Assembly: GCA_020466095.1 (NCBI GenBank)
Contig: CM035807.1
Span: 97,080,848-97,144,847 of the forward strand
Length of the DNA: 64,000 nucleotides
Direction of reading: 5' to 3'
Origin: Chlorops oryzae
Lineage: Eukaryota; Arthropoda; Insecta; Diptera; Chloropidae
Position 1 is the first letter of the stretch, and each line of letters starts with the position of its first letter. The translations under genes were made by a program, and so were the position numbers. The notes beneath the pieces are model-generated. The model had not been told where the DNA came from. It saw only the letters and a program-made list of their open reading frames with translations, and searched no databases. Shown here piece by piece: positions 682 through 28,608 of this stretch.

Positions 682-3600
682 ATGCAGGCGGCATTGATGC
701 TAAGATCGAAATCTCGGGTGGCGAGAAGAAGAAAGCTACGAAAATTAGGTGGAAGACTTGAGTTGCCTAGTAATGTAGCAACCAAAGAAATAGCTCCATT
801 TCCTCGTTATCCACCTGAGTCATGGGTAATACATGTATTTATTTATTGGTTTTGATTTTGTTTTTCTTTTTTCTTTTTGAAAAGCCAATTCAAAATTTTT
901 TAAAATAAGAAGAGAATAAAAAATAAGAAAAGGATAAGAAAATATTAGCGAGAAAGCCTTTCAGTTGAGACCAAAAAAAAAATTTTTTTTTTTTCTTTTC
1001 TATAATCGAAAGATATTTTCGGAAGAATAATAAATAAGACCTTTATTTCTTTATTCCATAGTACTCTTAACCTATCCCATAGTCCAATTCTCTCTCGCTC
1101 TCTCTATCTCTCGCTCTCTTTCTCTCTCTCTGTCTCCTTCTTCCGCTATCTTTCACTATTTTAGTGCTTTAAAACTATGCTAAGACCACTGTCTTCTCAA
1201 ATGTTTAAGTTCCCTGCGCTTATCTCTTCACTAACCTAACGCCTCTTTAGTTTTACCTCGAATGACACACAAAATCGTTGCATAGTTGCAGGAGTAAAGA
1301 ATGCCATTATCGCCAGCGCAGAGACTGCGGTAGAATTCTTATGCGATTTAGAACGAAAATAATTTTTTTTTTTTTAGCGCTTAAAATTTAGACTTTTTTT
1401 ATTCATTAATAGCAAGTTAGCGAGACTCGTTGGAGTTATTCTTTTAAATGTATAGAGATTTTGATGAAAATTCCTATAGTTCGCTTTTCAATTTTCAAAT
1501 AAATCTTTGCAATTTTTCTCTCTCAGCTTACTGCACTTCTGTAGACATACATATGAACCTTTCGAAATATAACCAGCAAAGCTCATGAATAAGTATTTAT
1601 CATCACTTTTCTCTTGCGCCTTTTGATACTTTGATCTTGTGAAAAATTTTTCGTGGAAAAGTGAAGAGAAAAAGCTTTCAAGTAGATCTAGATTAAACTA
1701 ACCGGTTCTCTTTAAGCGAGAAGCTTTCTTCAAATGCTTCTCTATCACTTACACTCTCACTGGTAATTTAGAACTGGAGAGCATTACAATCCTGCACAAG
1801 AGTAGTACCTACCCCTCTAGTTATTTACATAAATCACTGACCCTCAATAAATAAACGTAGATTATATTCACAAATATCGTCTCTAGTTTCTTCCTTTATA
1901 AATATATATATTTTTTTAAATCTTTTCTAACACATTCAATTACATATGCTTGAACATCTAATGTGAATCGTGGATCTACAGAAAATCTAAGAAAGAATAG
2001 CCAATAAGGCTTTCTTACATAGGTTTCGAAATCATATCGGGATCGATTTCAATCATTTTTCACTAGATCCGCCATTTTAACATGTTAATAATGAGGTAAA
2101 TTATCGGAGGATGTGTGGAATTCAGGATAAAAATATTCGGATTTTTTTTTTTAGTTTTAAGCTATAATTTTGAAAATTTAAATAGGTGCGATAAGGTTTT
2201 GGGGCCACACTCTATTGGGTGAATAATTTTTGCTTTCAATGTAACTTTTAAAATGCAACCACAAAACTTTTACAATAACAACGATCACTAGCGAGATTCT
2301 ACAGCTCTAATCCTCATTTAAAAATTCATTTTACTGTTTGTTTTCTATAATTAATAGGCTTAGAAAATTTATGTCCACCAAACCATCGGAGTAAATAATT
2401 TACTTAAATACTTTCTTTCATCATCAATTCTAAAGCACAGGGTATTTTTTTTTTTTAATAAAGACGGTTTGACAGGCAATCTTATTAATTCATTAATTTT
2501 TGGCAATCTGCCATATTAAACTTAGGAACAATTTTGTTGCCTGTCTAATAATGATAGATTAAAAAACTGGATATAGAGATAAAAAATGTAGAGAATTATC
2601 AATAATAGTGCCCCCCTATAGAAAAACACTGAATTTGCATTGTTCCTATAGAAAAACAGTTTCAGACATAGAACATATTTAATTTAAGCACCTAAAAGTA
2701 TGCATGAGTATTAAAAATCCAATTAATATCATTTTAAGCCTGCATAAACGGAGCTTAATTAAGGCTTTTTAGATATCCGCATATCTTTCAAAACTCCTTT
2801 CTCAAGATGTGATGAAACGGGCAAACCTACTATCGGAATATTAAAAAGCATAGTTTTAGGTGCTCAATTAAAATATTTACTTGTTGCCCTAGTGATAATA
2901 TTCTTCACCATATTATTTTTAAAATTTAATCGGCTTCACTTGGCAACTAACTAGACTGTCTCTGTCCATACATTCATGTTAGGACAGTGTTGGGATATCA
3001 TGGGAATTTTTACCTTTTGTGGGAATTTTAAACAAAAATTAAGGCAAATGAGAATTGTGGATTCTTAATTTTTCGTGATGTAGAATATGAGAATTTAGAT
3101 TTTTTTGCCCATTAAGCACGTTGTGAGAATCGTGAACACTGTTGAAGAAATATCAATAGACCAGTATATCCTTGAAATCAGTTTTTCAGTTAAAATTCCA
3201 CTCATATACAAAACTCATTTAAGGTTTTTATAGTTGTTAGTAGCGCTCGGAAACAAATGTATAAAAATTTATTTAAAATAATGAAAAACAAAAATGCTGG
3301 TAAAGCTGAAAAATTTCCTTCAGCTCTTTGTTTTATGCTTTAAATTTCATTAATAATGTTGTATTTTGAGCGAGTTTCTTCGTATTCATTGAAATTAAAA
3401 CTTCAATATAAGAAAATATTAATAAAATAATTAGAAAATATAATTTGGAACAAATTTTTGTTCATTTGTTATGCTTACCGCTAACTTTCAAACAGTGCCC
3501 CCACATTTTAGGCATCAAATATAATTTTCATATGCAGGAATTTTTCTTCCTTAGTCATTTTTAAGAAATAGAAAAGGCGATCCTGCCAGTTTAAGAAATA

Positions 3601-4861
3601 GGTAAAAGTAAAAATTGCACTAACGGAACGATTTGTAGTACAAACAGTGCACATCGTACGATAGATTGTATAGTTAATGGGCAGCTTTAAAGATTTATTT
3701 TTGTAGGTGAATTAGATTGGACATTTTAACAGTTTTTTTTCATAGACCTTAACGCAATTTTTCTTCATTTATGGAGCATTTTTTTCCGAGCCCCAGTTAA
3801 AAGTTAAAAACGAGGAAAGTTCGAATCCAACTAAATTCAGTAAATTGTAGGATGACAATGGCACAGTTTTTGATGCTTTTAAGAGAGGAATGCATATACC
3901 CGAGGAAAACTTTACATTGAACTAGTGAGAATTTTTTGTGGGAATTTTATTGAAAATAAAAAAAAAAAAAGGATCGTTTTGCGGCTTTCGCTAGGAAATT
4001 TATTCAAGAAAATATTCCAATGTTTTTATAATAGGATATTTTTTAAATTTTATACTAAAAAATTCTCAGAATCAATACCATTATGCCCACTGCAATTCAG
4101 GCTGTATTGTTTTATTTATATTTTCAAACAAATATTTCACAAAACTTCTCGATTATTTCGAAAAAAAATCTATATAAGAAATTATCCTTTATTCCACAAA
4201 CATTCCGGTAAAAAGTTTTTTTTTTTTTTTGTCTTGATCATCATTCATAGTAAAATTCGCACAAAATATTTTTTTGAAACTCACACCTGATAATCTTTTA
4301 AATTATCCCCAAACCAACGTGGCAATCGAAACACCTTCGTCCACAATGCACAACACATTGCGACACCACGGCTGCAAAATCATATTGCGTTGCCACCGCG
4401 CAAACGAATTGCGAATAGTAAGTTCCGATGCTCCCCCGTTGCTCTTCATTTACCATTTAAGATTCGTTGCAAACATACAACATACAACATCATTCCATGT
4501 ATCTATGTCCCAAAACTGTGTGTGTGCCTTGCTGTCTTTCGAGTACGATAAAAATGCTTGTAAATCTACTGTTCTTTGCATTTGCTGTCTTTATCTTCCA
4601 GTTTCTCATTTCTATTCTGACATCGCACTGTGTAATTATTCCATCCATAAACACAACACACATCAAGTTTTTTCCCGTCTTGCATTACGATCACAGCTTG
4701 CACCAGTGAAATTGTGCAAAAAATTTATTGAAGGATTCCATATCATTTACTTTTGAATTAAGGATGCTTGAAGTGGTCTCTCATTTCACAAATATTTATG
4801 TAATAATGATTTTTAGAAAAATTCTGCAAAATGAAAGTTCTCATTGTGTTCTTGGTGTGGT

Positions 4862-4892
<31 letters not shown>

Positions 4893-7800
4893 GAGATAAA
4901 AAATCAAAGTTCCATCCTTTCAATGAAGTCAAAACCAGTGCAAAGGATTCGAATTGCTTTGCATTTGTTTTGGTTTTACCAAGAACTCAATTTGATTTTT
5001 CCGTTTTGGCCTGACTTAAGGAAAGAAAGAAAAATAAAAACACGAAATGGCAAATCTGCAGACTGGAAATTTACAAGCATTTTTACGTACTCTTCTAACC
5101 AAGGAAATTGTTAAATATTAAACCTCCAATGGGCAGCAACTGATTGCACCATTTTTTTTTTTTTATAATTTCATAAAATTTCATTCATTTTGTTTGTCCT
5201 TAGTTCAAATGTTCTTCGCCAATTGGAATGTTGTACATACATCTAACCATAGAAAACCCAAAAAAAAAAATATTTTAAAAATCACAAAATAGAAGCTCCA
5301 AAACCATATATACTGCTTAACAGACCCTCCCACCCTCCAAGGAAGCTTCAACTTTTGAGTTCAATATCTCAATGCGAAGGATTTTAAGGGAGTTTGCTAT
5401 TTTTTTTTTTTTTAAGTTCACAAACAGCGAATGCTTAAAATGATTTCAAGTTTTCCCAAGAATTCAGTAAAGCTTGCTTGCCTCTCATTCCCGTTTTCGA
5501 TCTAGGAGCTCAACTTGATTCAATATGCGAAATGCTCTCCACAAAAACACCAAATAAGAAAGAAGAAAACAAAAAAACAAAAAATTCCAAAAATATATTA
5601 CGAAACAAGCAACAAGCAAAAAGCTTTCAAAATTATCAACGTTAATTTTCACAAAAATCAAATGAAAATTTCGAACCTTCGAGCTCGTTTGGAAGACCGT
5701 TATTTATCCACTTTCGAGTGCCGAAAAGAAAGTCCAAACCAGCTCCTGAATTTCGTTTCATTTTTGTGGAACATTTACACGTTGAAGCAAGCGTTTAAAA
5801 CTAAAAAAAAAAATACGAGATACGACAAACACACTAACACACTTAGCACAGGACGTCACTAATATTCCTTTGAACACAATAAACAGTTCTTTTCTTTTCT
5901 TGAATAAGGATTCTTGTTCAATACTTATCGCTAGCAAGAAAGCAATGTAAGTCAGGTTTCATTGTTCATGCGATAATTCATGCTTTTTCAGCGAATGGGT
6001 AAGTTCTATAATTATATCAATTTGTTGGAAAAAAAAAACAAAGAAAAAACTAAATAAATAGAGAACCTAGAATCCAAAGAAAAAATTAACCCATTTTAGT
6101 TAAAGCATTATTTTTAAGAAATCATGAATATCGCAAAACATCCATCACTCGACTTTTAGGCTTAATATGACCTCTCAAAATTCAAAGCCCTTTAGTTATG
6201 AGACAACAGAGCTCCAGTTAAACAGGATCTCTATGGACTTGCTTCTTTTTTTTTTTTTAACAGCTAATTGAGTTCTGTGTACACTGATAAGAGAATAGAT
6301 ACACTGTGATGTGAACTTGTGATCAGCCCTATAAAATTAGCCATCGATTTATGGATCGATTCCTGAACAATTTCCAACTTGTTTAAAAAATTTATCACTT
6401 GAAAGGGCTCACATTTTTTGAGGCAATTTCAATTCATCAATGAGAGCAGGTTATTCTTCTGTGTCCCACATCCATTTTTAATATTTTTTTTTAGAAAAAG
6501 TTTACAGAAAGCTTTTCCTTTTATATAACTTCAAAAACTAATATTTTCTCTTTCGAACATTTCAAGTGATTTTCATTTAAAAAGATTTTCCGTCGAAACG
6601 GTTAAATTTGCCGCACAGGCTGGCCCTGTTGAAGATTTCACAAAAGCTATGAAAAAAATAATTCCAAACTGGTGGAGTCCTTGCACTCATCAAACCGATT
6701 CATTTCAAGGAATTTAAATCTTAACAATCCAATTTTTCACTTGCAATCATTACACATTTACTGGTACATTTATTTGAGGAATACATACTGTCTTTTAACA
6801 TTACTTCAATTATTGTGAGAAACAAAACTCTTCCATACCCAAACCACATCCCCACTCCAAAAACAAACAGTGATTTAAGTTTGCATTAGATTTGAGCGTG
6901 TGTAAAAATTGCATTTCATCTACATATGGTTGAGCAATTCCTGCACCGTTTTCTAGGGTTTTCCATTCGAATTTGAGGCCATTCAAAAGACAAACTCCTT
7001 CAAATTATTAAACATAATTAACAAAAATACACAAAAAATTTTTTTTTTCTTCTAATCAAAATTTTTGCTTCAATTTTCTTTTCTCTTTTTAAAGAAATTT
7101 TTTCAATGCAAGTTTTTTGCAGACTTTTTTCTACTGCCGCTGCTGCTCCTGCTTGATTATCTTTTACGATAAATTTTACCGTTTATCTCAAAAACAAAAT
7201 GTTTCAAATTTTCAATTTGTCTTGAGCACGTCACCGACTTCCACCATATCTCGGCTTCGACACACATTCTTCAGCGTTGGAATTGAACAATCAAAAATTT
7301 TAAAAAGAAAAATTGAAAAAAAAAGCAACGAAAATCAGCTCACCTCATCCATCAATCATGACAAAAGAAAGAAAACAGAAAAAAAAAAGAAAAAACCCAG
7401 AGACAAATCGAAAGACGCGAACAACAAATTCATTTCCTTGTGCTAATTATGCAAAAATTAAATCCGCCATCAACAATGATCGTCCGTGTCAGAAATTTGT
7501 TAGGAGGTCGAGGTAGAGTTGTCAAAATTTTTCATTTTCCAAAAATTATCAAAATTAAAACCAAAAATTATTCAATTTGCTGTCGGAGAATTGTGCTTTC
7601 ACATTCTTTAACACGCGCTCTCTTTCTCTATCTAATTGTCTATGTGTATGAATTAATTTACATATGTGTGTGCTCTATCCATGTGTGTATGTGCGCCGAG
7701 TGTAGCCAACTGGTCCCGTTAATTGATCTGTGTGTGTCAAAATATCATAAAATCATTAATCCAGCACAATTTCTGTATCAATTCAAATCACTTTCTCTGT

Positions 7801-10800
7801 AAGAAATCTTAAAATAATTAAATAAATAAGGAATGTTCTTTTTTTTTTTTTTAACAAAGCATGATAAACTTTTCTTGCTTAAACCTAACGATGCATGATT
7901 TGTTGTGTGCTTTATTTGTACGATTTCAGTAACTTTGATAATTTTTTGAATATTTTTTTCATTTTTAGGTATACATATAAATTTAATCAACAGGTCATAT
8001 TGTGGCGGCTCACTCGAAATTGCTTATAAAATAATTTTTTCATTCATATTCCATAAGTATATAAAACGTTTTTGGAGCCTTCATTTCTCGTTTTAGAAAT
8101 CTGTATGCCTTCAGAAAAAAATGTCGGTTTTTTTGAATTTTGTCACCAAACCTAGAGGAGTAAAAAAGGCTTCAGAATATGGAAATTGAGCATTTGATTT
8201 TAATCTAAACTTTGAAACTCTGCACACTGTAGCGTGAAAAACGCGATACCATCAAGTCCAGGTGAAACCTAAATTGCTTTAGACTTTTAAAGAAATTTTT
8301 ATTTTACCTTGACAGAACTGATTACTTAAGTTGTCCCATAGAAAATTTTGCAATCAGATGCTTTCTTGAAAATACAAAAAAAAAAAAAAAAAATAAAAAA
8401 AATACGAAAATGTTCGCCATTGCGCCTAGAAGTGTTAAGACATCAAACTCCTACTTCTATGAACGAAGATAATTTCGCTTGCAAAGCATTTTCGGCCAAA
8501 CTTTTTGGCTAACAAGGCACTATGTCACTTCGTTTGAAACAACTTTTTGCCATACGTCGCACCATTGGGCTTTATTTGGCAGCAGCGCACAATAGCAACA
8601 GTGGCAGCTGTGTCAGCAATTACCAAAACTGGATTTAATTTGAAAATTCAAACTGAGTCGTGTGTCCAACAAGAGCAAAATAAAACACTTGTACTAATGT
8701 GCCTTTTTTTCCTTTATTCATTGAATTCAACGGTTTTCCAAAGAATGAATTTTTAAAAAATAATAAATTTTCTAAAAATCTAACGATCTTTGTAGCTTTA
8801 TATAGGTGACAAATTTCAAAATATTTTTCAAATAATAAAAATCAAATCGAATACGTAAACCATACATAAACCAAATTAGTGCGCCTACGTCGACTTCGGG
8901 AACACACTGCGTATGAGTAATATTTTTCAGTACTAAACAAAAAAGCACTCATACACAGACTCACACGAGTGTACCATTGAGCAACACTGAAAATGAAAAT
9001 TGCTTCATGAATTTTTTTAAACCAATTATAATCTTTGAACGAGAGAAAAATGACAAACTTTTTTTTGCCAAATATTCGAGCATAAAAGGATTTTGCAGAA
9101 AAAAGGAGAAAAGTTTCGTAAATCGTTTCCAAGTGCAATTTTCGTTCAATAGTGATTTATTGCACGACGACATTTAAAATTAAGCCTCTTGTTTTAAATC
9201 CAATTACACACCTCGAATAGTTAAACCGCAAAAAATCGTTTTAAATGAAAAGCGAACTATACAAAAGCGTCACTTCAAACTTCATTCGAGTGTGGAAAAG
9301 GGGAGAAAAATTTTTTGTTTATTTTCGTTTTGGCGAAAGACTTTTGAATGGTATTTTGGACGTATGCAGGGGGTGCTCTTGGAAGTTCAAACCGCCTTTG
9401 AAATGGGAGTAATCATCAAAGAGAGGAAATGAAAGGAACTTAAAAATTTGCAGCGCCCATAATATATTGAGCAAATGTATCCTTCCTCAATTAACATCAC
9501 GTGGGAACATAGAAAGAGCCGAATTTTAAAGCATTTCTTACTCAATTTTCAGTATTCTATCCACACTTTGCAATCATAGCATATACAGTTTAGCATGACG
9601 CCTATAATTCTCATTTGGTTTGTAAAATAGGACACATACGACTCGGAGAATTTCTGAAGAATTTTCACGACGTGATGGTGCAAGATTTTTAAGTGTGTCT
9701 TATTTTTTTATCGTTGCAACAGGAAAGATATCGATAGTTTCAATAGGTCGATAACCGATCGTTTCTATATTCGATAATTTTGGTAATCGATAATTTTATT
9801 TATCGATAATTTTATTAACGAAAATTTGATTATCGGAAATTTTAATTATCGATAATTTTATTTATCGAAATTTTTAATTATCGCTGTTTGAGTTGTGGTT
9901 TTTTTTTTTTTCTCTTGTGACAGGTTCTCGAGCTTGGAATTTTATCTACATAATAGAAGAATAATTCCACTTTTTTATGGGCATCTTTCTCAGTGTATTT
10001 TCATATGCAAATTTCACTACCGGCCTCATAAGTAAGTCCCGAGTCGGAAACAGAATTAAATTTTCTTAAATTTGTTCTTTAAATCTTATAAAAAAAAACC
10101 TCTGCTTCAATTTAAATTTCCGTTATTCGTCATTTGTGCAAGCGCCTCTATATGAAGGCTAACTAAAATTTTATTGATTTCACTTTTTAGTCAAAACCTT
10201 TTTTCAACGTATTCATCGAACAGCCTCCAAAAGGTGATACATATGTTGAAGGAAAAAAAAAAATCTTTCCTAAATCCTTGAGCTCCGAAATATGTATGTC
10301 CTGTCATTCGCGGCGCTGCGAACTTCCTTCGATGCCTTGCGATGTCTTGAAGAACGTAAATTATCACTTTGAATGTGTTGTATCGAGGTGTGCGACAAAG
10401 CTTTTGTACGCCCCCTTCACAAAAGGGTTAACCGCATTGCACTCATTCAGGTTACCACATCATTGTACCTATTCATTAGCTCACTTTTGTCTCCTCAAGT
10501 GTTTTGCACTTGATTTTCCTACGCTCAACTTAACTCAAGTTGCTGCTACGTCGCATAATAATAATGAATATTCAAGCAACGCCTTGACTTGGCCTTCATT
10601 GGCCCTTGATATTCAACATCGCAGCCAGCGAGTGAGTGAGTGAGTGCCTGCATGGTGCTGTGATTCTTTTGTTGACTCTGTGCTTAACCCCAATGACGAT
10701 GTGTTTACACGAAAGCAAAGCCCAAATAAACTTATTTCACATGAAAACGTCGCTATCGGTGGGGAAAAAATCTGCATGAAAAGACAGTTGCACTTTTTCT

Positions 10801-13800
10801 TAAGCCATTTGTCACATTCAAATTCAAAGTTCACTAAGGACTGAGATCTTTTTTTTTTTTTTTTGGATAGATAACATTTTCTTTTACCTCGTTACACTGA
10901 AAATTGTGAAACGTAAGATAAATTAGAATGATTTTTGTAAGCATAAATGTCTAGTTTGAAGTTTTTGAAGGCCTTAAAGACAAGGCATTGATGATTGTTT
11001 GAAGATATAACAATAGAAGGTGATACTTTTTATCATAAAAATTATTTTAATTTATTGATTTTGAATTAAATATATATATATATAAATAATATACCTATCA
11101 TTCATGAGGAACAACTAGCAGTGGGTCATCGGCCATCCAAGTAAATATATTTGGCTTCAATATAAGGCATTTCCACAATCTCTTTCACACTGAGGAAAAT
11201 CACTTTAGCATAATGGCCCAGGATTTCATGATATCCGGAAAGAAGCAGTTCCCTGGAGCAATGAAAATTAAAAATATAAGCCATTAAGTATGCTACGTAT
11301 TTTTATGGTTTATTTAATAATTTTATGCGACATCCCCCTTTTCAAAACTTGTGATCAAAAGTGGCTCTTTTTCGAGTCCTCTTTCTGATTGAAATAATCA
11401 AAAATTCGCTCGTTTACTGGTGAGAAAGTTTCCTTTTGTCGGGAGAAAATAGAAACCTAGCCGCAACTCTTCTTAGCGAGTCATATTTGATAGGATTTGG
11501 AGTCATTTTCAAGTCATAGTTGTGATCATTTTCGAGTTATATGTTAGATTTGGGACAGCCTTAGAACGACAAGAATAACAGGGTTACATATAAGAACTTC
11601 TCAGTCTTTGAATATTTATGATAGCTTTTTCCATTTTCATATGAAGCTTAGAAGCTATGAAGCCTCCAGACTTTGAACGTTTTTTCAAAAAAGTGCAAAT
11701 TAAGACGCCTAAACGAGCAATAAACTAAGAAAATCTTGTAGTTTTTGTACGTACATGAAAAAAAAAACCTCTCACAATCTTAAAATCCGCGTAGGCCAAT
11801 TTCTAAACCTTTTTCAAAAAAACTGAAAATATTCGCAAACAAAACTCTTACCCATAAGTTTTCGCAAAAAAAATCATGTACTCTCATATCCAAATAATGA
11901 ATTGATTTCAAAAAAGGATCTTTCCGACTCAGGAAGGCAATCGGCCCACTGATAATTAAAAACTTAAGACATCCGTCGATAAGTTAGGTTATTTTCATAA
12001 GAAGTGTTGTGGCATGAAAGCATTTCGAAAGCAGTTTAGGAAAATGCTTCAAATTTGAGAAAATTCAGAAGCTCAAATGCAAAAACTAATCTTCGCTAAA
12101 GCAATAACATTTCTTGAATACCATCGAATTAGAATAATCGCGTTTGTCGCTATCAGAATTAATTTTTCCTTGACCCATTTATGTATATCAGTGTGTGCGG
12201 CTCTTAATCACATTGAATTTCCGTGCAAATCCCACAAATTATTGCGACTATTCGTGTAATTCAGGAAAATATTCATGGAATTGTAACCGAATATCTATGT
12301 ACGTGCAATCATTTTACAATAACCTACTTCGACTGTAAACACATTTAAACGAAATGTTAATATTACTCCATTTGTACATCGTGGATGAAGGCTTAAAGGT
12401 TTTTTTCTGTTTTAGATAATTTAAGTTTACAAAATTAAACTTTTTGTTTGCTGCCACGATTTTGTTAAGAGTTTTGGATTAGGGTGGTATTGGTGACATA
12501 AGGAGTATTTTTGAAAAAATTTTCTCAGCTCTGGTTTTGCTTGTTTAACTTTTATGGAAAAAAATAAATTATCGCTTTAGGAACTTATTATGATTGGTTG
12601 CGTATCAAAGCCAATATCACTATCTATCAAATGAGGCATTTTTCAAGAAAATACAGCTTGTACTTTTGGAGGAATGTGCTTCGCAGTTGTGAAAAATAGG
12701 ACATTTTTTCAAGTTCTCCTCGCTTTTCGGAGTTTATTTGCCCTGCTGTGACATGAAATGTGATGTGATCTGATGACCTTTGCTTCAAAATGCTTGATTT
12801 GTTTATACATATTCATTTTCCTATTGTGAAAAAGAATGTGAGCATTTTTGTTTATATCCGCAGGAATATTTAGAATCGCGCTGATAGTCTTTTCTGAAAC
12901 TTCGCCTGTAAGTATGCTATCTTTTGAGTCTCCACAGATAGCGAGATAGAGCAAAGACGCGAACGTGAAAAAAGCTTGTCAAAAGCTTGTGTATTCGCTA
13001 TGCCAGTTGTTTGAGTCTTAGCTATGCATGTTATCTGAACTAGGTTCATACGTCACGAATTAGTGACAGAGGTCTTTGAGTGGGCGTAGCACAAAAAGTA
13101 GGCGTGGCAGAGTTACGAAGTTGAACTTTTCCGACTTTGGGGCACAACATTAAGCTAAATTCCGAATGTCGGTCCCGTGGGTTCAAAATTGTGTATTTTA
13201 GAAAAACCCGTTTTCTGTTTGAGGGGGTTGGGGTGGTTCGATTTCAAAATTTTTTTGGGAATCTCTTAGATCTAGAGATTAGAAAACGTCCATGCCAAAT
13301 TTCAAAGCCCTAGGGCAACTCCTTCTATGATTTACCAAGAAATGTATGGAGTTCAAGCGCTTGAACTCCATACATTTCTTGGTAAATCATAGAAGGAGTT
13401 GCGCCTAGGGCTTTGAAATTTGGCATGGACGTTTCAATCTCTAGATCTAAGAGATTCCCAAAAAAATTTTGAAATCGAACCACCCCAACCCCCTCAAACA
13501 GAAAACGGGTTTTTCTAAAATACACAATTTTGAACCCACGGGACCGACATTCGGAATTTAGCTTAATGTTGTGCCCCAAAGTCGGAAAAGTTCAACTTCG
13601 TAACTCTGCCACGCCTACTTTTTGTGCTACGCCCACTCAAAGACCTCTGTCACTAATTCGTGACGTATGAACCTAGTTCAGATAACATGCATAGCTAAGA
13701 CTCAAACAACTAGCATAGCGAATACACAAGCTGTTGACAAGCTTTTTCACGTTCGCGTCTTAAGTCTGCTCTTACGTCACGAATATCTGATAAAGGACTT

Positions 13801-16800
13801 TAAGAGGGCGTAGCACAAAAAGTAGGCGTGGCAGCGTTACGAACTTGAACTTTTCCAACTCTGGGGCACAAAAGTAAGCTAAATTCCGAATGTGGGTCCC
13901 ATGGGTTCAAAATTGTGGATTTTAGAAAAACCCGTTTTCTGTTTGAGGGGTTGGGGTGGCTCGATTTCGAAAATTTTTTGGGAATCTCTTAGATCTAGAG
14001 ATAGAAGCGTCCATGCCAAATTTCAAGACCCTAGGGTAACTCCTTCTATGATTTACCAAGAAATGTATGGAGGTAAGCGCTTGAACTCCATACATTTTTG
14101 GTAAATCATAGAAGGAGTTGCGCTAGGGCTTTGAAATTTGGCATGGACGTTTCAATCTCTAGATCTAAGAGATTCCAAAAAATTTGAAATCGAACCACCC
14201 AACCCCCTCAACAGAAAACGGGTTTTTCTAAAATACACAATTTTGAACCCACGGGACCACATTCGGAATTTAGCTTAATGTTGTGCCCCAAAGTGGAAAA
14301 GTTCAACTTCGTAACTTGCCACGCCTACTTTTTGTGCTACGCCCACTCAAAGACCTCTGTCACTTTTTTAAAAAAGACTCAAACACTGATAGCATACAAG
14401 CTGTTGACAAGCTTTCACGTTCGTCTAAGTTCTTACGTCACGAATATCTGATAAAGGACTTTAAGAGGGCGTAGCACAAAAAGTAGGCGTGGCAGCGTTA
14501 CGAACTTGAACTTTTCCAACTCTGGGGCACAAAAGTAAGCTAAATTCGAATGTGGGTCCCATGGGTTCAAAATTGTGGATTTTAGAAAAACCCGTTTTCT
14601 GTTTGAGGGGGTTGGGGTGGCTCGATTTCGAAAATTTTTTGGGAATCTCTTAGATCTAGAGATAGAAGCGTCCATGCCAAATTTCAAGACCCTAGGGTAA
14701 CTCCTTCTATGATTTACCAAGAAATGTATGGAGGTTAAGCGCTTGAACTCCATACATTTCTTGGTAAATCATAGAAGGAGTTGCGCTAGGGCTTTGAAAT
14801 TTGGCATGGACGTTTCAATCTCTAGATCTAAGAGATTCCCAAAAAAATTTTGAAATCGAACCACCCCAACCCCCTCAAACAGAAAACGGGTTTTTCTAAA
14901 ATACACAATTTTGAACCCACGGGACCGACATTCGGAATTTAGCTTAATGTTGTGCCCCAAAGTCGGAAAAGTTCAACTTCGTAACTCTGCCACGCCTACT
15001 TTTTGTGCTACGCCCACTCAAAGACCTCTGTCACTAATTCGTGACGTATGAACCTAGTTCAGATAACATGCATAGCTAAGACTCAAACAACTAGCATAGC
15101 GAATACACAAGCTGTTGACAAGCTTTTTCACGTTCGCGTCTTAAGTCTGCTCTTACGTCACGAATATCTGATAAAGGACTTTAAGAGGGCGTAGCACAAA
15201 AAGTAGGCGTGGCAGCGTTACGAACTTGAACTTTTCCAACTCTGGGGCACAAAAGTAAGCTAAATTCCGAATGTGGGTCCCATGGGTTCAAAATTGTGGA
15301 TTTTAGAAAAACCCGTTTTCTGTTTGAGGGGGTTGGGGTGGATCGATTTCGAAAATTTTTTGGGAATCTCTTAGATCTAGAGATAGAAGCGTCCATGCCA
15401 AATTTCAAGACCCTAGGGTAACTCCTTCTATGATTTACCAAGAAATGTATGGAGGTTAAGCGCTTGAACTCCATACATTTCTTGGTAAATCATAGAAGGA
15501 GTTGCGCTAGGGCTTTGAAATTTGGCATGGACGTTTCAATCTCTAGATCTAAGAGATTCCCAAAAAAATTTTGAAATCGAACCACCCCAACCCCCTCAAA
15601 CAGAAAACGGGTTTTTCTAAAATACACAATTTTGAACCCACGGGACCGACATTCGGAATTTAGCTTAATGTTGTGCCCCAAAGTCGGAAAAGTTCAACTT
15701 CGTAACTCTGCCACGCCTACTTTTTGTGCTACGCCCACTCAAAGACCTCTGTCACTAATTCGTGACGTATGAACCTAGTTCAGATAACATGCATAGCTAA
15801 GACTCAAACAACTAGCATAGCGAATACACAAGCTGTTGACAAGCTTTTTCACGTTCGCGTCTTAAGTCTGCTCTTACGTCACGAATATCTGATAAAGGAC
15901 TTTAAGAGGGCGTAGCACAAAAAGTAGGCGTGGCAGCGTTACGAACTTGAACTTTTCCAACTCTGGGGCACAAAAGTAAGCTAAATTCCGAATGTGGGTC
16001 CCATGGGTTCAAAATTGTGGATTTTAGAAAAACCCGTTTTCTGTTTGAGGGGGTTGGGGTGGTCGATTTCGAAAATTTTTTGGGAATCTCTTAGATCTAG
16101 AGATAGAAGCGTCCATGCCAAATTTCAAGACCCTAGGGTAACTCCTTCTATGATTTACCAAGAAATGTATGGAGGTTAAGCGCTTGAACTCCATACATTT
16201 CTTGGTAAATCATAGAAGGAGTTGCGCTAGGGCTTTGAAATTTGGCATGGACGTTTCAATCTCTAGATCTAAGAGATTCCCAAAAAAATTTTGAAATCGA
16301 ACCACCCCAACCCCCTCAAACAGAAAACGGGTTTTTCTAAAATACACAATTTTGAACCCACGGGACCGACATTCGGAATTTAGCTTAATGTTGTGCCCCA
16401 AAGTCGGAAAAGTTCAACTTCGTAACTCTGCCACGCCTACTTTTTGTGCTACGCCCACTCAAAGACCTCTGTCACTAATTCGTGACGTATGAACCTAGTT
16501 CAGATAACATGCATAGCTAAGACTCAAACAACTAGCATAGCGAATACACAAGCTGTTGACAAGCTTTTTCACGTTCGCGTCTTAAGTCTGCTCTTACGTC
16601 ACGAATATCTGATAAAGGACTTTAAGAGGGCGTAGCACAAAAAGTAGGCGTGGCAGCGTTACGAACTTGAACTTTTCCAACTCTGGGGCACAAAAGTAAG
16701 CTAAATTCCGAATGTGGGTCCCATGGGTTCAAAATTGTGGATTTTAGAAAAACCCGTTTTCTGTTTGAGGGGGTTGGGGTGGTCGATTTCGAAAATTTTT

Positions 16801-19800
16801 TGGGAATCTCTTAGATCTAGAGATAGAAGCGTCCATGCCAAATTTCAAGACCCTAGGGTAACTCCTTCTATGATTTACCAAGAAATGTATGGAGGTTAAG
16901 CGCTTGAACTCCATACATTTCTTGGTAAATCATAGAAGGAGTTGCGCTAGGGCTTTGAAATTTGGCATGGACGTTTCAATCTCTAGATCTAAGAGATTCC
17001 CAAAAAAATTTTGAAATCGAACCACCCCAACCCCCTCAAACAGAAAACGGGTTTTTCTAAAATACACAATTTTGAACCCACGGGACCGACATTCGGAATT
17101 TAGCTTAATGTTGTGCCCCAAAGTCGGAAAAGTTCAACTTCGTAACTCTGCCACGCCTACTTTTTGTGCTACGCCCACTCAAAGACCTCTGTCACTAATT
17201 CGTGACGTATGAACCTAGTTCAGATAACATGCATAGCTAAGACTCAAACAACTAGCATAGCGAATACACAAGCTGTTGACAAGCTTTTTCACGTTCGCGT
17301 CTTAAGTCCTCTTACGTCACGAATATCTGATAAAGGACTTTAAGAGGGCGTAGCACAAAAAGTAGGCGTGGCAGCGTTACGAACTTGAACTTTTCCAACT
17401 CTGGGGCACAAAAGTAAGCTAAATTCCGAATGTGGGTCCCATGGGTTCAAAATTGTGGATTTTAGAAAAACCCGTTTTCTGTTTGAGGGGGTTGGGGTGG
17501 TCGATTTCGAAAATTTTTTGGGAATCTCTTAGATCTAGAGATAGAAGCGTCCATGCCAAATTTCAAGACCCTAGGGTAACTCCTTCTATGATTTACCAAG
17601 AAATGTATGGAGGTTAAGCGCTTGAACCCATACATTTCTTGGTAAACATAGAAGGAGTTGCGCTAGGGCTTTGAAATTTGGCATGGACGTTTCAATCTCT
17701 AGATCTAAGAGATTCCCAAAAAAATTTTGAAATCGAACCACCCCAACCCCCTCAAACAGAAAACGGGTTTTTCTAAAATACACAATTTTGAACCCACGGG
17801 ACCGACATTCGGAATTTAGCTTAATGTTGTGCCCCAAAGTCGGAAAAGTTCAACTTCGTAACTCTGCCACGCCTACTTTTTGTGCTACGCCCACTCAAAG
17901 ACCTCTGTCACTAATTCGTGACGTATGAACCTAGTTCAGATAACATGCATAGCTAAGACTCAAACAACTAGCATAGCGAATACACAAGCTGTTGACAAGC
18001 TTTTTCACGTTCGCGTCTTAAGTCTGCTCTTACGTCACGAATATCTGATAAAGGACTTTAAGAGGGCGTAGCACAAAAAGTAGGCGTGGCAGCGTTACGA
18101 ACTTGAACTTTTCCAACTCTGGGGCACAAAAGTAAGCTAAATTCCGAATGTGGGTCCCATGGGTTCAAAATTGTGGATTTTAGAAAAACCCGTTTTCTGT
18201 TTGAGGGGGTTGGGGTGGATCGATTTCGAAAATTTTTTGGGAATCTCTTAGATCTAGAGATAGAAGCGTCCATGCCAAATTTCAAGACCCTAGGGTAACT
18301 CCTTCTATGATTTACCAAGAAATGTATGGAGGTTAAGCGCTTGAACTCCATACATTTCTTGGTAAATCATAGAAGGAGTTGCGCTAGGGCTTTGAAATTT
18401 GGCATGGACGTTTCAATCTCTAGATCTAAGAGATTCCCAAAAAAATTTTGAAATCGAACCACCCCAACCCCCTCAAACAGAAAACGGGTTTTTCTAAAAT
18501 ACACAATTTTGAACCCACGGGACCGACATTCGGAATTTAGCTTAATGTTGTGCCCCAAAGTCGGAAAAGTTCAACTTCGTAACTCTGCCACGCCTACTTT
18601 TTGTGCTACGCCCACTCAAAGACCTCTGTCACTAATTCGTGACGTATGAACCTAGTTCAGATAACATGCATAGCTAAGACTCAAACAACTAGCATAGCGA
18701 ATACACAAGCTGTTGACAAGCTTTTTCACGTTCGCGTCTTAAGTCTGCTCTTACGTCACGAATATCTGATAAAGGACTTTAAGAGGGCGTAGCACAAAAA
18801 GTAGGCGTGGCAGCGTTACGAACTTGAACTTTTCCAACTCTGGGGCACAAAAGTAAGCTAAATTCCGAATGTGGGTCCCATGGGTTCAAAATTGTGGATT
18901 TTAGAAAAACCCGTTTTCTGTTTGAGGGGGTTGGGGTGGATCGATTTCGAAAATTTTTTGGGAATCTCTTAGATCTAGAGATAGAAGCGTCCATGCCAAA
19001 TTTCAAGACCCTAGGGTAACTCCTTCTATGATTTACCAAGAAATGTATGGAGGTTAAGCGCTTGAACTCCATACATTTCTTGGTAAATCATAGAAGGAGT
19101 TGCGCTAGGGCTTTGAAATTTGGCATGGACGTTTCAATCTCTAGATCTAAGAGATTCCCAAAAAAATTTTGAAATCGAACCACCCCAACCCCCTCAAACA
19201 GAAAACGGGTTTTTCTAAAATACACAATTTTGAACCCACGGGACCGACATTCGGAATTTAGCTTAATGTTGTGCCCCAAAGTCGGAAAAGTTCAACTTCG
19301 TAACTCTGCCACGCCTACTTTTTGTGCTACGCCCACTCAAAGACCTCTGTCACTAATTCGTGACGTATGAACCTAGTTCAGATAACATGCATAGCTAAGA
19401 CTCAAACAACTAGCATAGCGAATACACAAGCTGTTGACAAGCTTTTTCACGTTCGCGTCTTAAGTCTGCTCTTACGTCACGAATATCTGATAAAGGACTT
19501 TAAGAGGGCGTAGCACAAAAAGTAGGCGTGGCAGCGTTACGAACTTGAACTTTTCCAACTCTGGGGCACAAAAGTAAGCTAAATTCCGAATGTGGGTCCC
19601 ATGGGTTCAAAATTGTGGATTTTAGAAAAACCCGTTTTCTGTTTGAGGGGGTTGGGGTGGATCGATTTCGAAAATTTTTTGGGAATCTCTTAGATCTAGA
19701 GATAGAAGCGTCCATGCCAAATTTCAAGACCCTAGGGTAACTCCTTCTATGATTTACCAAAAATGTATGGAGGTTAAGCGCTTGAACTCCATACATTTCT

Positions 19801-22800
19801 TGGTAAATCATAGAAGGAGTTGCCTAGGCTTTGAAATTTGGCATGGACGTTTCAATCTCTAGATCTAAGAGATTCCCAAAAAATTTTGAAATCGAACCAC
19901 CCCAACCCCCTCAACAGAAAACGGGTTTTTCTAAAATACACAATTTTGAACCCACGGGACCGACATTCGGAATTTAGCTTAATGTTGTGCCCCAAAGTCG
20001 GAAAAGTTCAACTTCGTAACTCTGCCACGCCTACTTTTTGTGCTACGCCCACTCAAAGACCTCTGTCACTAATTCGTGACGTATGAACCTAGTTCAGATA
20101 ACATGCATAGCTAAGACTCAAACAACTAGCATAGCGAATACACAAGCTGTTGACAAGCTTTTTCACGTTCGCGTCTTAAGTCTGCTCTTACGTCACGAAT
20201 ATCTGATAAAGGACTTTAAGAGGGCGTAGCACAAAAAGTAGGCGTGGCAGCGTTACGAACTTGAACTTTTCCAACTCTGGGGCACAAAAGTAAGCTAAAT
20301 TCCGAATGTGGGTCCCATGGGTTCAAAATTGTGGATTTTAGAAAAACCCGTTTTCTGTTTGAGGGGGTTGGGGTGGTCGATTTCGAAAATTTTTTGGGAA
20401 TCTCTTAGATCTAGAGATAGAAGCGTCCATGCCAAATTTCAAGACCCTAGGGTAACTCCTTCTATGATTTACCAAGAAATGTATGGAGGTTAAGCGCTTG
20501 AACTCCATACATTTCTTGGTAAATCATAGAAGGAGTTGCGCTAGGGCTTTGAAATTTGGCATGGACGTTTCAATCTCTAGATCTAAGAGATTCCCAAAAA
20601 AATTTTGAAATCGAACCACCCCAACCCCCTCAAACAGAAAACGGGTTTTTCTAAAATACACAATTTTGAACCCACGGGACCGACATTCGGAATTTAGCTT
20701 AATGTTGTGCCCCAAAGTCGGAAAAGTTCAACTTCGTAACTCTGCCACGCCTACTTTTTGTGCTACGCCCACTCAAAGACCTCTGTCACTAATTCGTGAC
20801 GTATGAACCTAGTTCAGATAACATGCATAGCTAAGACTCAAACAACTAGCATAGCGAATACACAAGCTGTTGACAAGCTTTTTCACGTTCGCGTCTTAAG
20901 TCTGCTCTTACGTCACGAATATCTGATAAAGGACTTTAAGAGGGCGTAGCACAAAAAGTAGGCGTGGCAGCGTTACGAACTTGAACTTTTCCAACTCTGG
21001 GGCACAAAAGTAAGCTAAATTCCGAATGTGGGTCCCATGGGTTCAAAATTGTGGATTTTAGAAAAACCCGTTTTCTGTTTGAGGGGGTTGGGGTGGATCG
21101 ATTTCGAAAATTTTTTGGGAATCTCTTAGATCTAGAGATAGAAGCGTCCATGCCAAATTTCAAGACCCTAGGGTAACTCCTTCTATGATTTACCAAGAAA
21201 TGTATGGAGGTTAAGCGCTTGAACTCCATACATTTCTTGGTAAATCATAGAAGGAGTTGCGCTAGGGCTTTGAAATTTGGCATGGACGTTTCAATCTCTA
21301 GATCTAAGAGATTCCCAAAAAAATTTTGAAATCGAACCACCCCAACCCCCTCAAACAGAAAACGGGTTTTTCTAAAATACACAATTTTGAACCCACGGGA
21401 CCGACATTCGGAATTTAGCTTAATGTTGTGCCCCAAAGTCGGAAAAGTTCAACTTCGTAACTCTGCCACGCCTACTTTTTGTGCTACGCCCACTCAAAGA
21501 CCTCTGTCACTAATTCGTGACGTATGAACCTAGTTCAGATAACATGCATAGCTAAGACTCAAACAACTAGCATAGCGAATACACAAGCTGTTGACAAGCT
21601 TTTTCACGTTCGCGTCTTAAGTCTGCTCTTACGTCACGAATATCTGATAAAGGACTTTAAGAGGGCGTAGCACAAAAAGTAGGCGTGGCAGCGTTACGAA
21701 CTTGAACTTTTCCAACTCTGGGGCACAAAAGTAAGCTAAATTCCGAATGTGGGTCCCATGGGTTCAAAATTGTGGATTTTAGAAAAACCCGTTTTCTGTT
21801 TGAGGGGGTTGGGGTGGATCGATTTCGAAAATTTTTTGGGAATCTCTTAGATCTAGAGATAGAAGCGTCCATGCCAAATTTCAAGACCCTAGGGTAACTC
21901 CTTCTATGATTTACCAAGAAATGTATGGAGGTTAAGCGCTTGAACTCCATACATTTCTTGGTAAATCATAGAAGGAGTTGCGCTAGGGCTTTGAAATTTG
22001 GCATGGACGTTTCAATCTCTAGATCTAAGAGATTCCCAAAAAAATTTTGAAATCGAACCACCCCAACCCCCTCAAACAGAAAACGGGTTTTTCTAAAATA
22101 CACAATTTTGAACCCACGGGACCGACATTCGGAATTTAGCTTAATGTTGTGCCCCAAAGTGGAAAAGTTCAACTTCGTAACTCTGCCACGCCTACTTTTT
22201 GTGCTACGCCCACTCAAAGACCTCTGTCACTAATTCGTGACGTATGAACCTAGTTCAGATAACATGCATAGCTAAGACTCAAACAACTAGCATAGCGAAT
22301 ACACAAGCTGTTGACAAGCTTTTTCACGTTCGCGTCTTAAGTCTGCTCTTACGTCACGAATATCTGATAAAGGACTTTAAGAGGGCGTAGCACAAAAAGT
22401 AGGCGTGGCAGCGTTACGAACTTGAACTTTTCCAACTCTGGGGCACAAAAGTAAGCTAAATTCCGAATGTGGGTCCCATGGGTTCAAAATTGTGGATTTT
22501 AGAAAAACCCGTTTTCTGTTTGAGGGGGTTGGGGTGGTCGATTTCGAAAATTTTTTGGGAATCTCTTAGATCTAGAGATAGAAGCGTCCATGCCAAATTT
22601 CAAGACCCTAGGGTAACTCCTTCTATGATTTACCAAGAAATGTATGGAGGTTAAGCGCTTGAACTCCATACATTTCTTGGTAAATCATAGAAGGAGTTGC
22701 GCTAGGCTTTGAAATTTGGCATGGACGTTTCAATCTCTAGATCTAAGAGATTCCCAAAAAAATTTTGAAATCGAACCACCCCAACCCCCTCAAACAGAAA

Positions 22801-25800
22801 ACGGGCTTTTTTAAAATACACAATTTTGAACCCACGGGACCGACATTCGGAATTTAGCTTAATGTTGTGCCCCAAAGTCGGAAAAGTTCAACTTCGTAAC
22901 TCTGCCACGCCTACTTTTTGTGCTACGCCCACTCAAAGACCTCTGTCACTAATTCGTGACGTATGAACCTAGTTCAGATAACATGCATAGCTAAGACTCA
23001 AACAACTGGCATAGCGAATACACAAGCTGTTGACAAGCTGTTTTCACGTTCGCGTCTTTGCTCTATCTCGCTATCTGTGGAGACTCAAAAGATAGCATAC
23101 TAACAGGCGAAGTTTCAGAAAAGACTATCAGCGCGATTCTAAATATTCCTGCGGATATGAAAAAAATGCTCCCATTCTTTTTCACAATAGGAAAATGAAT
23201 ATGTATAAACAAATCAAGCATTTTGAAGCAAAGGTCATCAGATCACATCACATTTCATGTCACAGCAGGGCAAATAAACTCCGAAAATCGAGGAGAACTC
23301 GCAAAAATTTCCCATTTTTCACAACTGCGAAGCACATTCCTCCAAAAGTACAAGCTTTATTTTCTTGAAAAATGCCTCATTTGATAGATAGTGATATTGG
23401 CTTTGATACGCAACCAACCATAATAAGTTCCTAAAGCGATAATAACTATTTTTTTCCATAAAAGTTAAACAATTGAAGACAAAACCACTGTAAACTAGTG
23501 TAATCAAACACAATGAAATATATAGGATTTTGTAAAATGAGACCCTCATACTAGTACTTCTACTCATTCATAGACGTGCTCTTTGGTGAGCTTATAAGAA
23601 GTTTTATTGATTTTTCTGCAATGATTGCAAAGCTCTATTTTTTTTTTTTTTTGCTTTTTCTTTTTCAATGTCATTTACTTGCGCTCTCAGTTCGCCAACT
23701 GAATCATAACTAAATATAAGGCTCTAAATACCAAGACCTATGTGTTTAAAACCGTGGGTGTAAAATATACTGTTGCGCTAACCATAAGACACACGTTGGC
23801 ACGCTAAACAAAAATTCCTTTTTCGCCGTTTTTCAATTTTCATATTTTCCTGTTGGTTTAAGCTTTGACCTTAACACAATAATAACGAACCGTTTGTTTT
23901 TTTTTTTTACTTTTTTCCTTCCCTTTTGTTCTGCGCGAACAAGTTTGCCATTTCCGCTCAATGCGTAGAAACATTAAAAAAAAAAAAGACCCGAAGTGAG
24001 TTCCAGAGGTGTACTTATTTTTGGCCTTTTCTTCTATTCTCAATAGTTATGCCTTCGCGAAATGCCATTCTCATTTATTCGGGTTTGCCAGTTTCTCTAA
24101 ATGTGGAATATCCGGCTGTTCCGCACCTCATAATAATGGATTTTGACTTTCCATTTCCTTTTCGACGTACGTGACTCGTGCGTGGCTATATGGTCAACCA
24201 TAGGAGGCTATGTAGGCGCGCCGCCGTACAGAATATTTCAAGAGCGAATTTCATTCACTCGTCATGTCAACATAATTTCCCTCAATAGCTACTTATTTTA
24301 AACAATGCCATAATTTTGGTGAAATTTTGACGCCAACACACAAAAAAACAAATAAATAAATAAAAATAAAACATTAAACGAGGACTTTAAAGAGCAGAGA
24401 AATATTATCTCATATTAATGACAAAAAGCGAATAATATCGTCATTGTCAGCCATTGGTCTTGAAATGCCCTTGACGCGAACATAAGTGCAAATGTACAAA
24501 AATTCTGCAGCGGCGAACATTTCCACACATGCAATTATTTGTTGTATCTAGTCCGACTGAAAGAGCCTAAAAACTTAATGACTTCCATCATGAAATTCAA
24601 AGGAAAATAAAAAGAAAATATTTATTTTTGTCGGCACGATGTCAGGAAATACGAACACGAATAACATAGAGACACACAACAAAAAAGAAATATTTTTTTC
24701 GCGTGTTCAGTCTGCATGTGAACAGCAGACAACATGAAAATTCCTGCAGAATTGTCAACAGTGTATGTATGGGAAAAAAATATTTACTCTATGCAGGCTG
24801 AAAGTGAATATTTACCATTGAATTAAATTGGAAGAAAGTAATTAATGTCTTTTTTTTTTCAATGTTAAAGTGATGTAAAAAAAAAAAAAAAGTTTTTCTC
24901 TTTTTGAATTATTTCAACGGCAGAATGAGTCATAGGCCTCTAGAGGAAGAAATAATAATTTCGAAGCCTGGAAGTAGAAAATATTTTGCTTTAGACTCAT
25001 GAACTTAACTCAATGACAGCCGCTGTACCTGAACAGATTCCCGAATCTAAAATAGCCTTTCATTTTATAATCGATTTTTAAGCACTTTCCTGAACAGTTC
25101 CGTCTTAAAAAAAAAGGTGCAAAAATTACTGGCAATGTACCCGGTTCTCTAAATTCATCAAGGCTTTTGCCTCGGCTTTTAGTCTTATAGTCTTCAACAT
25201 AGTTTAATACAAATATAAAACTCAGTTTGCTTTCACAAAATGAAGCGATTTAAGCCGACCAATAACGTCACATAGCTGACGTGGTCGAAGTGGCTAGGAC
25301 GCTGGTAAAGATGCCTGATGATGAACTCGTAGCTGGGTTTGAAATCTATCGCATCAGCTTTCCACGTTCCACTTTCACCAATCAGAAAAAAGATTTTTTC
25401 GACTGCCAAAAAGTAAAATAATGATTTTATAAAAGAAATTGTTGAACCCGAAACCTAAAAAATAGAAATACAAATATAATAAAATAATTTTTGAAAAATT
25501 CAAATATACTGAAGGCATTTGATTGAGTTAATCTGACATGAAGACTTAAAGAATATATTCGACAATTTAAACTTTCGAAATTCTTAAACCGAGTTTCGAA
25601 TTTATATTCTTCAAACGGGTTTAACTCAATCAAATCCCTTTGCTTTTTTCGAACTTTTCCAAAATGTTTCTATAAAATTAATAAACCTACTTTAAACTCT
25701 CCTGAACTTTAAACATTTTCCCCCTTATTCATAATCAAATTTTAAATTTAAAACATTGTTTAAATTCAATTTTTGTATGGAAATCTGACATTTAAACAAT

Positions 25801-28608
25801 GCTTTAAATCTAAAATTTGATTATGAATAAGGGGGTAAAAATTTTAAACCTTCATAAAGTTTAAACTAGGTTGAAGACTATGTGCCAATGTACACACCAT
25901 TCTTTTCGGAAACTAACCGGGCGACTTTGTACACAAATCCAATATAAAATTTTTTTTATGAGTTTTCGACCAATTCGACTTCTAAAAGAGGAAATCGCTC
26001 GACCATAACGAAGGCAAAACGTTAAATTCCCCTAAACAAAACATTCGTCATAGAGCTTAACATAATATAATAGGTAAATAAGTACTTGTATGTAATTATC
26101 GCAAACACGAGTGTGCCGTCCCGACGTATGAGTGATGTGAATGCACATACGCAAGCGGAAATGAACGCAATTACAAACTCAAAGCCAAAGGCTCTATGAA
26201 AGCACGTTCATTATGCATGCTTTAATAAAATTTCAAACTTTCTGCTCTGAACTTGTTCATCAGCTTGCTTATAAATAATGTAGGTAATTTTGTTTGATGA
26301 AATTAAATTCATATTAAATATTTGAAGCACTATTGAAAAGCATGCAAAAAAATATTTTAAAAAATTCAATAAAATAGAGAAGTAAAAATTTCCTATCCTT
26401 GATTTTGTTGGCAACTAAAACCGAGCTTCCGGTTTTCTTTCTATTTTGTATAAACGAAATGTATGTCCAGTTTTTCCAACTCTACTTTCTGTTACCACTT
26501 CCTTTTCCGTTTTTTTTTCTTCTTCATTTTTTTTCTTTCTATATATATTAACTAAAATATCTCGTTGCTCCATGTGAATTAAAAAAAAAAAAAGAGAAAT
26601 AGATTATATCCTTCGGCAATTTACGTAGACATCGTAAAGTAAAAAAAATAAATAAATAACAAATTTTATTTGTAATTGTTGAATCTGAGTGTCTGCTGTT
26701 CTTCATTACTTTTTCATTTCGTTTTTATTTATACTTCTTTTGTGACCGTTGATGTTGTCAAACAGAAATGAATAAATATATGGTACGATATATAGATTTA
26801 CATACTTACATATATAGCCGAAGTTAAATGTTTGCCTTTATTGTTGCTGATGAAACGTTTTCGTTTCGTTTCGTTTCGATGTTAATGTTCATTTGTTTCA
26901 TAAGTTCGGTGATGCGAAATTGCCAGCTCAGCGGATCTATTAAATAATTCAACTTTCATCTTCTTCTTCCTTGTACATAAAGTGCGCACAGGGCCGTGCA
27001 GCTTGGTTGGAGCGTGGCCGACGTTGCAGCGTTCAAGAGGCTCAGCAGCAGGCTGCCTGCCACCGTCGCTGGGTTAAGCGAAACCGAGTGAGTTGTTTAA
27101 GCAATGTTCATGGTCCATGAAATGAAGTCGGAAGTAAAAAAAAAAAAAAAAATTCCATTTTTTTTTTATGGTTTTTCTTTGAGCAGATTCAAGATGCTTC
27201 TTTGGGAGGATCATCCGATGACGAGGACTTTCTCGGCGTACTTCGTGGACCAAGTACATTTGCAAATGCTTTTTTGTACGTGGGCTTGGGTACTGTTGCT
27301 TTGGGGCTGGTCATAGCATTTGTCGGAACGGGAGAGAAGGGATTCAAAACTGTTGAACTAAGACTTATAGGGCCGTCCTTGATTGGTATGTTAAACCAAA
27401 AAAAAAAATAGCAACAAAAAATTTAAATTTTATCCTAAATAATCCTCTTTAATTTAATATATTCAAATTTATGTATTATTATAGGCCTTGGACTTATTTG
27501 TTGCATTTTACGTATACTTTTTTGTATATGCCCGTCACATTGCATCGCCTCAAATAAGACGCGCAAGAAAAATGGCAACAAAGTGGATGCGGACCATACG
27601 ACTTCATTATTGCGCGGTGAAAATAAGCGAGTCTCAATCGCACGAAGCTCGTCCATGCAGGTAAAGAGAGTGAAGAACAAATTCTTTGTCATTTGAAAAA
27701 CGGTAATCTGCCAATGTACCTAACTTAACATTTTACATTTACAGCCAAAATATCCCGCTACGCACAAGCGAAGTCAGAGTAAAATGCTCAACGAAGGCAT
27801 GGAGGCATTACGTCAAATAGCAACAACTTCACTGTTTATGCAAAACGAGCAGAAACCATCCATGAATCGTGTAGTTCCTATTATAAAAGAGCCCGAAAGT
27901 CAAAATGGTACGCAAAATTTAATTCGATTTAGAATCACTCTCTATTAACATCACTCCAATTATCTGTAGAAGGTGCTTTGGAAATGAAAAAACTTGACCC
28001 TCCCATTCAAGTTCGGGAAGTAGGCTATCGGGATGAGTGTAAGGGAAACACTACTCGAAGTATGGCCGATAAAGCTCAAATAACGAAAAGCTCAAAAGCT
28101 ACTCAAGTTTTTGAACCAATGGACTCAACGACAACCGCAACAGCAATGGGAAAACGCCAAACAATAACTTCGCCAACAACAACCAATCCATCATCAACGT
28201 CCACGCCGACAACAAACAATAGCAGCAGTGCAAGCAATCAAACAATATTCAAAGCAACACCTGCCATCAGACAAACTGAACGCACGATACCACCGCCACA
28301 GGGAACAGTGACAAATTCAGTGGGCAAATTGACGCGACAGCGTGTTGTGTTCAACCAGGATGAGCATCCACAAAAGCAGATATCCTTCGAGCAGTCGCAG
28401 TCGCAGTCGCAGTCACAATCGATTTCTTCATCGTCGACCGTTAAAAAGTCGATAGATGGAGATTTGCTAATGGAGACATCATTGATGGCCTTGCCACCAC
28501 CACCAACACCACAAACAGTCAAAGCAGCAAAGGAAGACCATATTGCCATACTTACGCCAAATACGAGCGATATTCCTGTCACAACAACATCCCAATTTGG
28601 AATAACAT

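Follow-up and report, generated by a model that had tools for sequence, protein, structure and literature searches.

FB elements of Drosophila melanogaster and TFB1 of Chironomus are named as foldback elements, and Tetris of D. virilis carries terminal inverted repeats (TIRs) of up to 1,735 bp, with FD, OD and ID domains and tandem repeats of about 220 bp that seeded satellite arrays (PMC4079207). Long inverted repeats in tandem are also described from hairpin-RNA (hpRNA) loci. The copies of hp-CG4068 number 20 in D. melanogaster and 9 in D. simulans, an hp-tHMG cluster of the latter species holds 13 near-identical hairpins, and copy number at tandem hpRNA loci shifts fast between fly species (PMC10317233). 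Esi1 and Esi2 likewise hold multiple inverted repeats, and the MLE helicase accumulates at transcribed hairpin transgenes. Here we analyse an element of about 11 kb (12532-23487) in a window of 64,000 nucleotides from Chlorops oryzae (assembly GCA_020466095.1, contig CM035807.1, positions 97,080,848 to 97,144,847 of the forward strand; coordinates count from the first letter of this stretch). The element is a chain of near-identical hairpin-forming units enclosed by inverted ends, and it lies inside an intron of a plus-strand gene. We consider it probable that this is a non-autonomous foldback-type DNA element whose palindromic core was amplified in place, with an architecture resembling those of Tetris and Galileo.

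Tandem palindromes between inverted ends

Self-comparison revealed a direct period of 721 bp. In addition, 14425-22972 matches itself in inverted orientation, accompanied by a series of matches shifted by steps of about 721 bp. Fourteen palindrome centres, each with the word AAGCGCTT, span 13358 to 22656. Centres 2 to 14 have an A-type left arm and a B-type right arm, forming A/B hairpins (the slash marks the centre) with virtually no loop; together with a spacer of 98 bp, the two arms of 311 bp each make up a repeat unit with a period of about 721 bp. In the reference unit, A pairs with B at 282 of 311 positions, and the 29 mismatches (A against the reverse complement of B) comprise 12 transitions and 17 transversions. 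A multiple alignment puts the A arm of every centre from 2 to 14 at a distance of 28-30 substitutions from internal B. Centre 1 belongs to a B'/B palindrome in which both arms are B-type, with 2 and 0 substitutions from internal B and 28 from A, and its palindromy extends outward to 12954-13761 (98.276% on itself). The whole element can be written as T - sp' - B'/B - sp - (A/B - sp) x 13 - T', where sp is the spacer and the final B-sp forms part of the right end (Table 1). The 13 tandem palindromic units of about 720 bp announced by the original prediction correspond to the 13 A/B repeats, of which 12 measure 713-721 bp; one, however, is only 662 bp long, and the first palindrome is an extra one of the B'/B type.

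The inverted ends pair from 12532 and 23487 inward over about 830 bp, first through the T outer domain of about 430 bp and then through the spacer and the B arm. The inverted termini of about 430 bp that had been predicted are thus the T domain, whereas the inverted match is really about 830 bp long. The two T ends differ by 11 substitutions and 10 gap columns over about 425 aligned columns. Both terminal spacers carry G at unit position 665 (plus strand of the right end), differing there from the internal spacer. The word TGCTCT, read by eye, is common to the spacer-to-A and spacer-to-T' joints, a hint that the junction may have been made on short homology.

Under ungapped, zero-loop scoring, the best palindrome inside the element reached 224 (308-bp arms, four centres), against 32 elsewhere in the window (at 25777) and 10, 9 and 7 in three mononucleotide shuffles. 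Twelve of the 14 centres score at least 13; the other two (14078 and 17619) fall outside the top 16, owing, we think, to nearby indels. When up to 3 mismatches are allowed, an arm pattern of 38 bases has 27 matches in the window, all in the element, with 0.00 expected; 28 arms exist, and the one missed is the left arm of centre 1. Tandem Repeats Finder (TRF) reported no repeat over the array, as expected, since the unit period exceeds its longest period of 500. The self-comparison, the 14 centres and the palindrome scores confirm the predicted array of tandem palindromes within inverted termini.

Table 1. Parts of the element and its host intron (coordinates within the window)
Feature	Position	Strand	Basis or remark
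Host intron (26.2 kb), 'mucin-5AC'-like gene	826..26982	+	tblastn and splice-site letters
Left outer domain T (426 bp)	12532..12957	+	inverted match to 23054-23487
Left spacer, inverted copy of unit spacer	12958..13047	+	terminal-spacer base shared with right end
First palindrome, B'/B, centre 13358, 311-bp arms	13048..13669	.	self-match and arm typing
Shortened A/B repeat (662 bp), 59 deleted bases in 23 runs	13769..14430	+	assembly error or decayed unit
Eleven complete A/B-spacer units (716-721 bp)	14430..22345	+	self-comparison, unit alignment
A arm, reference unit (311 bp)	15151..15461	+	29/311 mismatches to reverse complement of B
B arm, reference unit (311 bp)	15462..15772	+	unit alignment
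Non-palindromic spacer, reference unit (98 bp)	15773..15870	+	self-comparison, unit alignment
Last A/B unit; the right inverted end continues through its spacer and B arm	22346..23058	+	unit alignment
Right outer domain T (434 bp)	23054..23487	-	inverted match to left T
Palindrome centres	13358, 14078, 14740, 15461, 16181, 16901, 17619, 18338, 19059, 19779, 20495, 21216, 21937, 22656		word AAGCGCTT

In pairwise alignment, the ten complete units within 15150-22345 show no substitutions relative to the reference unit (itself one of the ten) and differ by deletions only, which total 14 bases, 2 of them unit-boundary effects. Two substitutions, one of them at the unit boundary, and one deletion mark the unit at 14430, and the last unit has three substitutions, one inserted base and otherwise deletions. 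In the multiple alignment, where gap placement differs from the pairwise one, arm R10 shows 3 and arm R2 shows 17 substitutions from internal B. Because the units show 0 substitutions, the T ends 11 and the A and B arms 29 in 311 (9%), the growth or homogenisation of the array appears to be the latest event, unless the assembler smoothed the units. On the same comparison, the split between A and B would be the oldest event and the T ends would be younger or converted. Among the units within 13769-23058, position 193 is A in the reference and C in the unit at 14430, and it is deleted in five units (15871, 16591, 17309, 20185 and 22346).

The foldback reading and its alternatives

The original prediction had offered two readings, an endogenous small interfering RNA (endo-siRNA) locus and a foldback-type transposon. 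The foldback alternative fits the anatomy best: the inverted ends continuous with the core, the modular layout of T, spacer and arm and the direct repeats all favour it, as do the order of divergence given above and the fact that no coding capacity was recognised. Long terminal inverted repeats, as expected of a foldback element, are present, and so are modular internal tandem repeats, but these lie between the ends rather than within each end. We use 'foldback-type' as a label for the anatomy alone, since no target duplication was found, and do not assign the element to Tetris, Galileo or FB.

The base form of such an element would be one long palindrome consisting of T, spacer, B' arm, B arm, spacer and T'. 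At some stage a related hairpin would have been present in it, with a left arm, A, that is 9% different from B'. In-place, head-to-tail multiplication of the 721-bp core, A/B-spacer, would have followed, through unequal exchange or through replication slippage aided by hairpin formation, and the copies would have been homogenised. The element would act as DNA, its T ends presumably bound by a transposase supplied in trans, while the core would be passive and prone to expand. As a by-product, the host pre-mRNA would carry long double-stranded RNA (dsRNA) exposed to Dicer-2, ADAR or the MLE helicase.

Several observations weigh against this reading. No target-site duplication (TSD) of 7-10 bp, as expected of foldback elements, came to light: no word of 6-10 bp is common to the two ends in stretches that take in 40 bp of flank and the first 20 bp of the element. 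The ends may be worn, or the copy may be chimeric. The exact ends are themselves uncertain, because the match stops at TGGTTTTG, with which the left-end alignment starts at 12532, and is broken a little further in by three gaps (4, 2 and 2 bp). No second copy of the element was found elsewhere within the window, and no transposase was recognised in the element. One search for relatives of the arm open reading frames (ORFs), with a four-row alignment against a set of 5.8 billion proteins, returned 37 candidates, none with E <= 0.001.

A coding origin of the arms was considered and is not supported. All six frames are interrupted by stops in both A and B; the frame with the fewest (centre-to-outside frame 2) has 1 in A, where it holds a 97-aa ORF, and 2 in B. 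The codon changes between A and B are mostly nonsynonymous (18-23 against 3-9). Of the 28 ORFs in 12500-16000 with 40 aa or more, two from the element were compared with Pfam, which returned no family, and no protein relative emerged from the search above. At the gathering score, Rfam gave no match in the window. Exact words of the element had no match in viral contigs (two words) or prokaryote genomes (one word), collections which, not being fly genomes, say little here.

What the array might do as RNA bears on the remaining readings. Like an hpRNA locus, it has inverted repeats from which long dsRNA can form: the folding energy of one unit is -498.8 kcal/mol, whereas 20 shuffles gave -179.5 (sd 7.0; z = -45). 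Within A/B, perfect pairing extends for up to 42 bp and covers 55 of 291 windows of 21 bases in full, so that Dicer-2 would probably find a fair substrate in a transcript of the array. The fold of two units, however, has its minimum in one longer duplex (A1 with B2, B1 with A2) at -1016.8 kcal/mol, whereas two separate hairpins would come to about -997.6 kcal/mol (twice the single unit). Since the longer duplex is lower in energy, the predicted train of long dsRNA hairpins holds as one of several near-equal folds, but not as the two-unit minimum.

A foldback element might, through its intronic placement, accidentally feed endo-siRNAs or PIWI-interacting RNAs (piRNAs) directed against its own family and so limit itself. 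The anatomy suits this as well as it suits a plain foldback element, and there are parallels: the arms of hp-ODox2 in D. simulans are inverted repeats of BS2/Jockey, with siRNAs complementary to BS2/Jockey, and esiRNAs of Drosophila cultured cells come mostly from long terminal repeat (LTR) retrotransposons and hairpins. Such self-limitation requires family members elsewhere, however, and we regard it as unlikely.

We give slightly less credence to a functional hpRNA locus like hp-CG4068 or the hp-tHMG cluster, whose transcript would be diced into 21-nt endo-siRNAs silencing complementary genes or elements. The position in a plus-strand gene's intron, the fold of the single unit and its perfectly paired windows agree with this reading, and tandem hpRNA arrays provide the precedent (PMC10317233). 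Yet no gene was recognised in the arms, and no match to them lies elsewhere in the 64-kb window. Nor is there a sign of selection for RNA pairing: the mismatches look neutral, 6 of the 29 arm differences being G:U-type and 6 A:C-type in a plus-strand transcript. Moreover, an hpRNA needs no transposon-like inverted ends. The endo-siRNA reading is therefore possible, but nothing specific speaks for it. About equally improbable, in our view, is a transposon-born hpRNA locus in formation, its palindromic core having become a hairpin satellite, in which kilobase-scale dsRNA in host transcripts would trim the family or tune the host gene via Dicer-2 or ADAR.

That hairpins or repeat number were created or inflated when noisy long reads were assembled is very improbable: the units are near-identical, their remaining differences are mostly single-base deletions and one unit lacks 59 bases with just 2 substitutions, but the substitutions between A and B recur unit after unit, which strand-switching of one molecule would not yield, the two T ends are not identical to each other, and homopolymers, which make up 53% of bases, hold no excess of the single-base deletions in the bad unit (7 of 13). 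A sequencing-hairpin artefact as the source of the palindromes was rejected, given these recurring substitutions and the lack of any 13-base word of a sequencing adapter in 12300-23800. The shortened repeat nevertheless looks like badly polished sequence. We trust the palindromic unit and the ends, but the exact repeat number of 13 is doubtful, because one unit carries those 59 deleted bases.

Host intron and gene neighbourhood

By tblastn, the host gene resembles Drosophila proteins named 'mucin-5AC' and the like. Of the ten query proteins (P0121-P0130), the nine from Drosophila bear the source names 'mucin-5AC', 'serine-rich adhesin for platelets' or 'pneumococcal serine-rich repeat protein', or are listed as hypothetical. 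A coding exon at 682-825 (+) was matched by seven of the ten over 48 residues, with identity up to 100%, and a downstream coding stretch from 26980-27145 (+) by nine. For P0122, the match restarts at 26983 with residue 49, right after the 48 residues of the exon. This continuity, together with a GT donor at 826-827 and an AG acceptor at 26981-26982, places the element in a plus-strand intron of 26.2 kb, as had been predicted. A later acceptor may be used by other isoforms.

The same intron holds a small near-palindrome at 25684-25872, resembling a miniature inverted-repeat transposable element (MITE), with 58-nt arms that are 90% complementary and 24 nt apart. An inverted repeat at 60596-61192 (156-nt arms, 97% complementary, 285 nt apart) may be a MITE or another hairpin. 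A LINE-type (long interspersed nuclear element) retroelement occupies 44433-46850; its three ORFs match reverse transcriptase and RNase H between them, in part below the Pfam cut-off. The neighbouring genes within 35144-55176 encode a TPR protein (-), pescadillo (+), an eRF1-domain protein (-) that we take to be pelota, and a protein kinase (+) that is presumably PKA. For the pescadillo stretch, Lucilia cuprina is the best among named relatives (87%), followed by Drosophila (81-84%) and Ceratitis (72%); another sequence reaches 92%. Finally, a long low-complexity tract at 55972-56458 is open on both strands and rich in Met and Ile codons.

Comparison with known systems

FB and TFB1 share long inverted repeats with the Chlorops element, the internal repeats of FB being short; the likeness is one of description, not of sequence. 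Tetris comes close in its long modular inverted ends, in internal tandem repeats that vary in number, in the absence of a conserved ORF and in repeats whose similarity is greater in long arrays than inside complete copies (PMC4079207). In contrast, the repeats of Tetris lie inside its TIRs, whereas here a palindromic unit of 721 bp is repeated between the ends; Tetris has TSDs of 8-10 bp and none was found here; and neither 'palindrom' nor 'hairpin' occurs in the Tetris text (PMC4079207). Galileo of D. mojavensis and D. willistoni, likened here by description rather than sequence, has foldback-like long TIRs, which in the F subfamily contain two or three tandem repeats of about 210 bp, and includes 12 chimeric copies without matching 7-bp TSDs (PMC3573991, PMC4168063). 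It differs in having copies with a P-superfamily transposase and TSDs of 7-8 bp, and the excerpts of these papers do not term its repeats palindromic (PMC3573991, PMC4168063). The hp-CG4068 and hp-tHMG cluster loci, with tandem near-identical hairpins in 9-20 copies, resemble the array itself, but they yield Dicer-2-dependent siRNAs (PMC10317233), and the array here bears transposon-like ends.

Among the matches listed in a search of titles and abstract beginnings in open-licence PMC, part of it aimed at hairpin RNA, there was no foldback element with tandem long palindromes. The words 'giant' and 'new' used in the original prediction rest on one copy in one assembly with a repeat count that we do not trust. 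As we read the literature, the origin of the tandem inverted repeats of hpRNA loci is not settled, and an element with inverted ends and a tandemised palindromic core would offer such loci a ready-made precursor. With it, the path that leads in Tetris from a foldback element to satellite DNA would also take in palindromic units. Instability is expected of long palindromes that have virtually no loop, so that an array of 14 centres in a gene intron, if real, would serve as a natural test of how flies tolerate palindromes. Foldback elements with expanded repeats and tandem hairpin RNAs are both known; what appears to be new here is the combination of long, virtually loopless palindromes tandemised between foldback ends.

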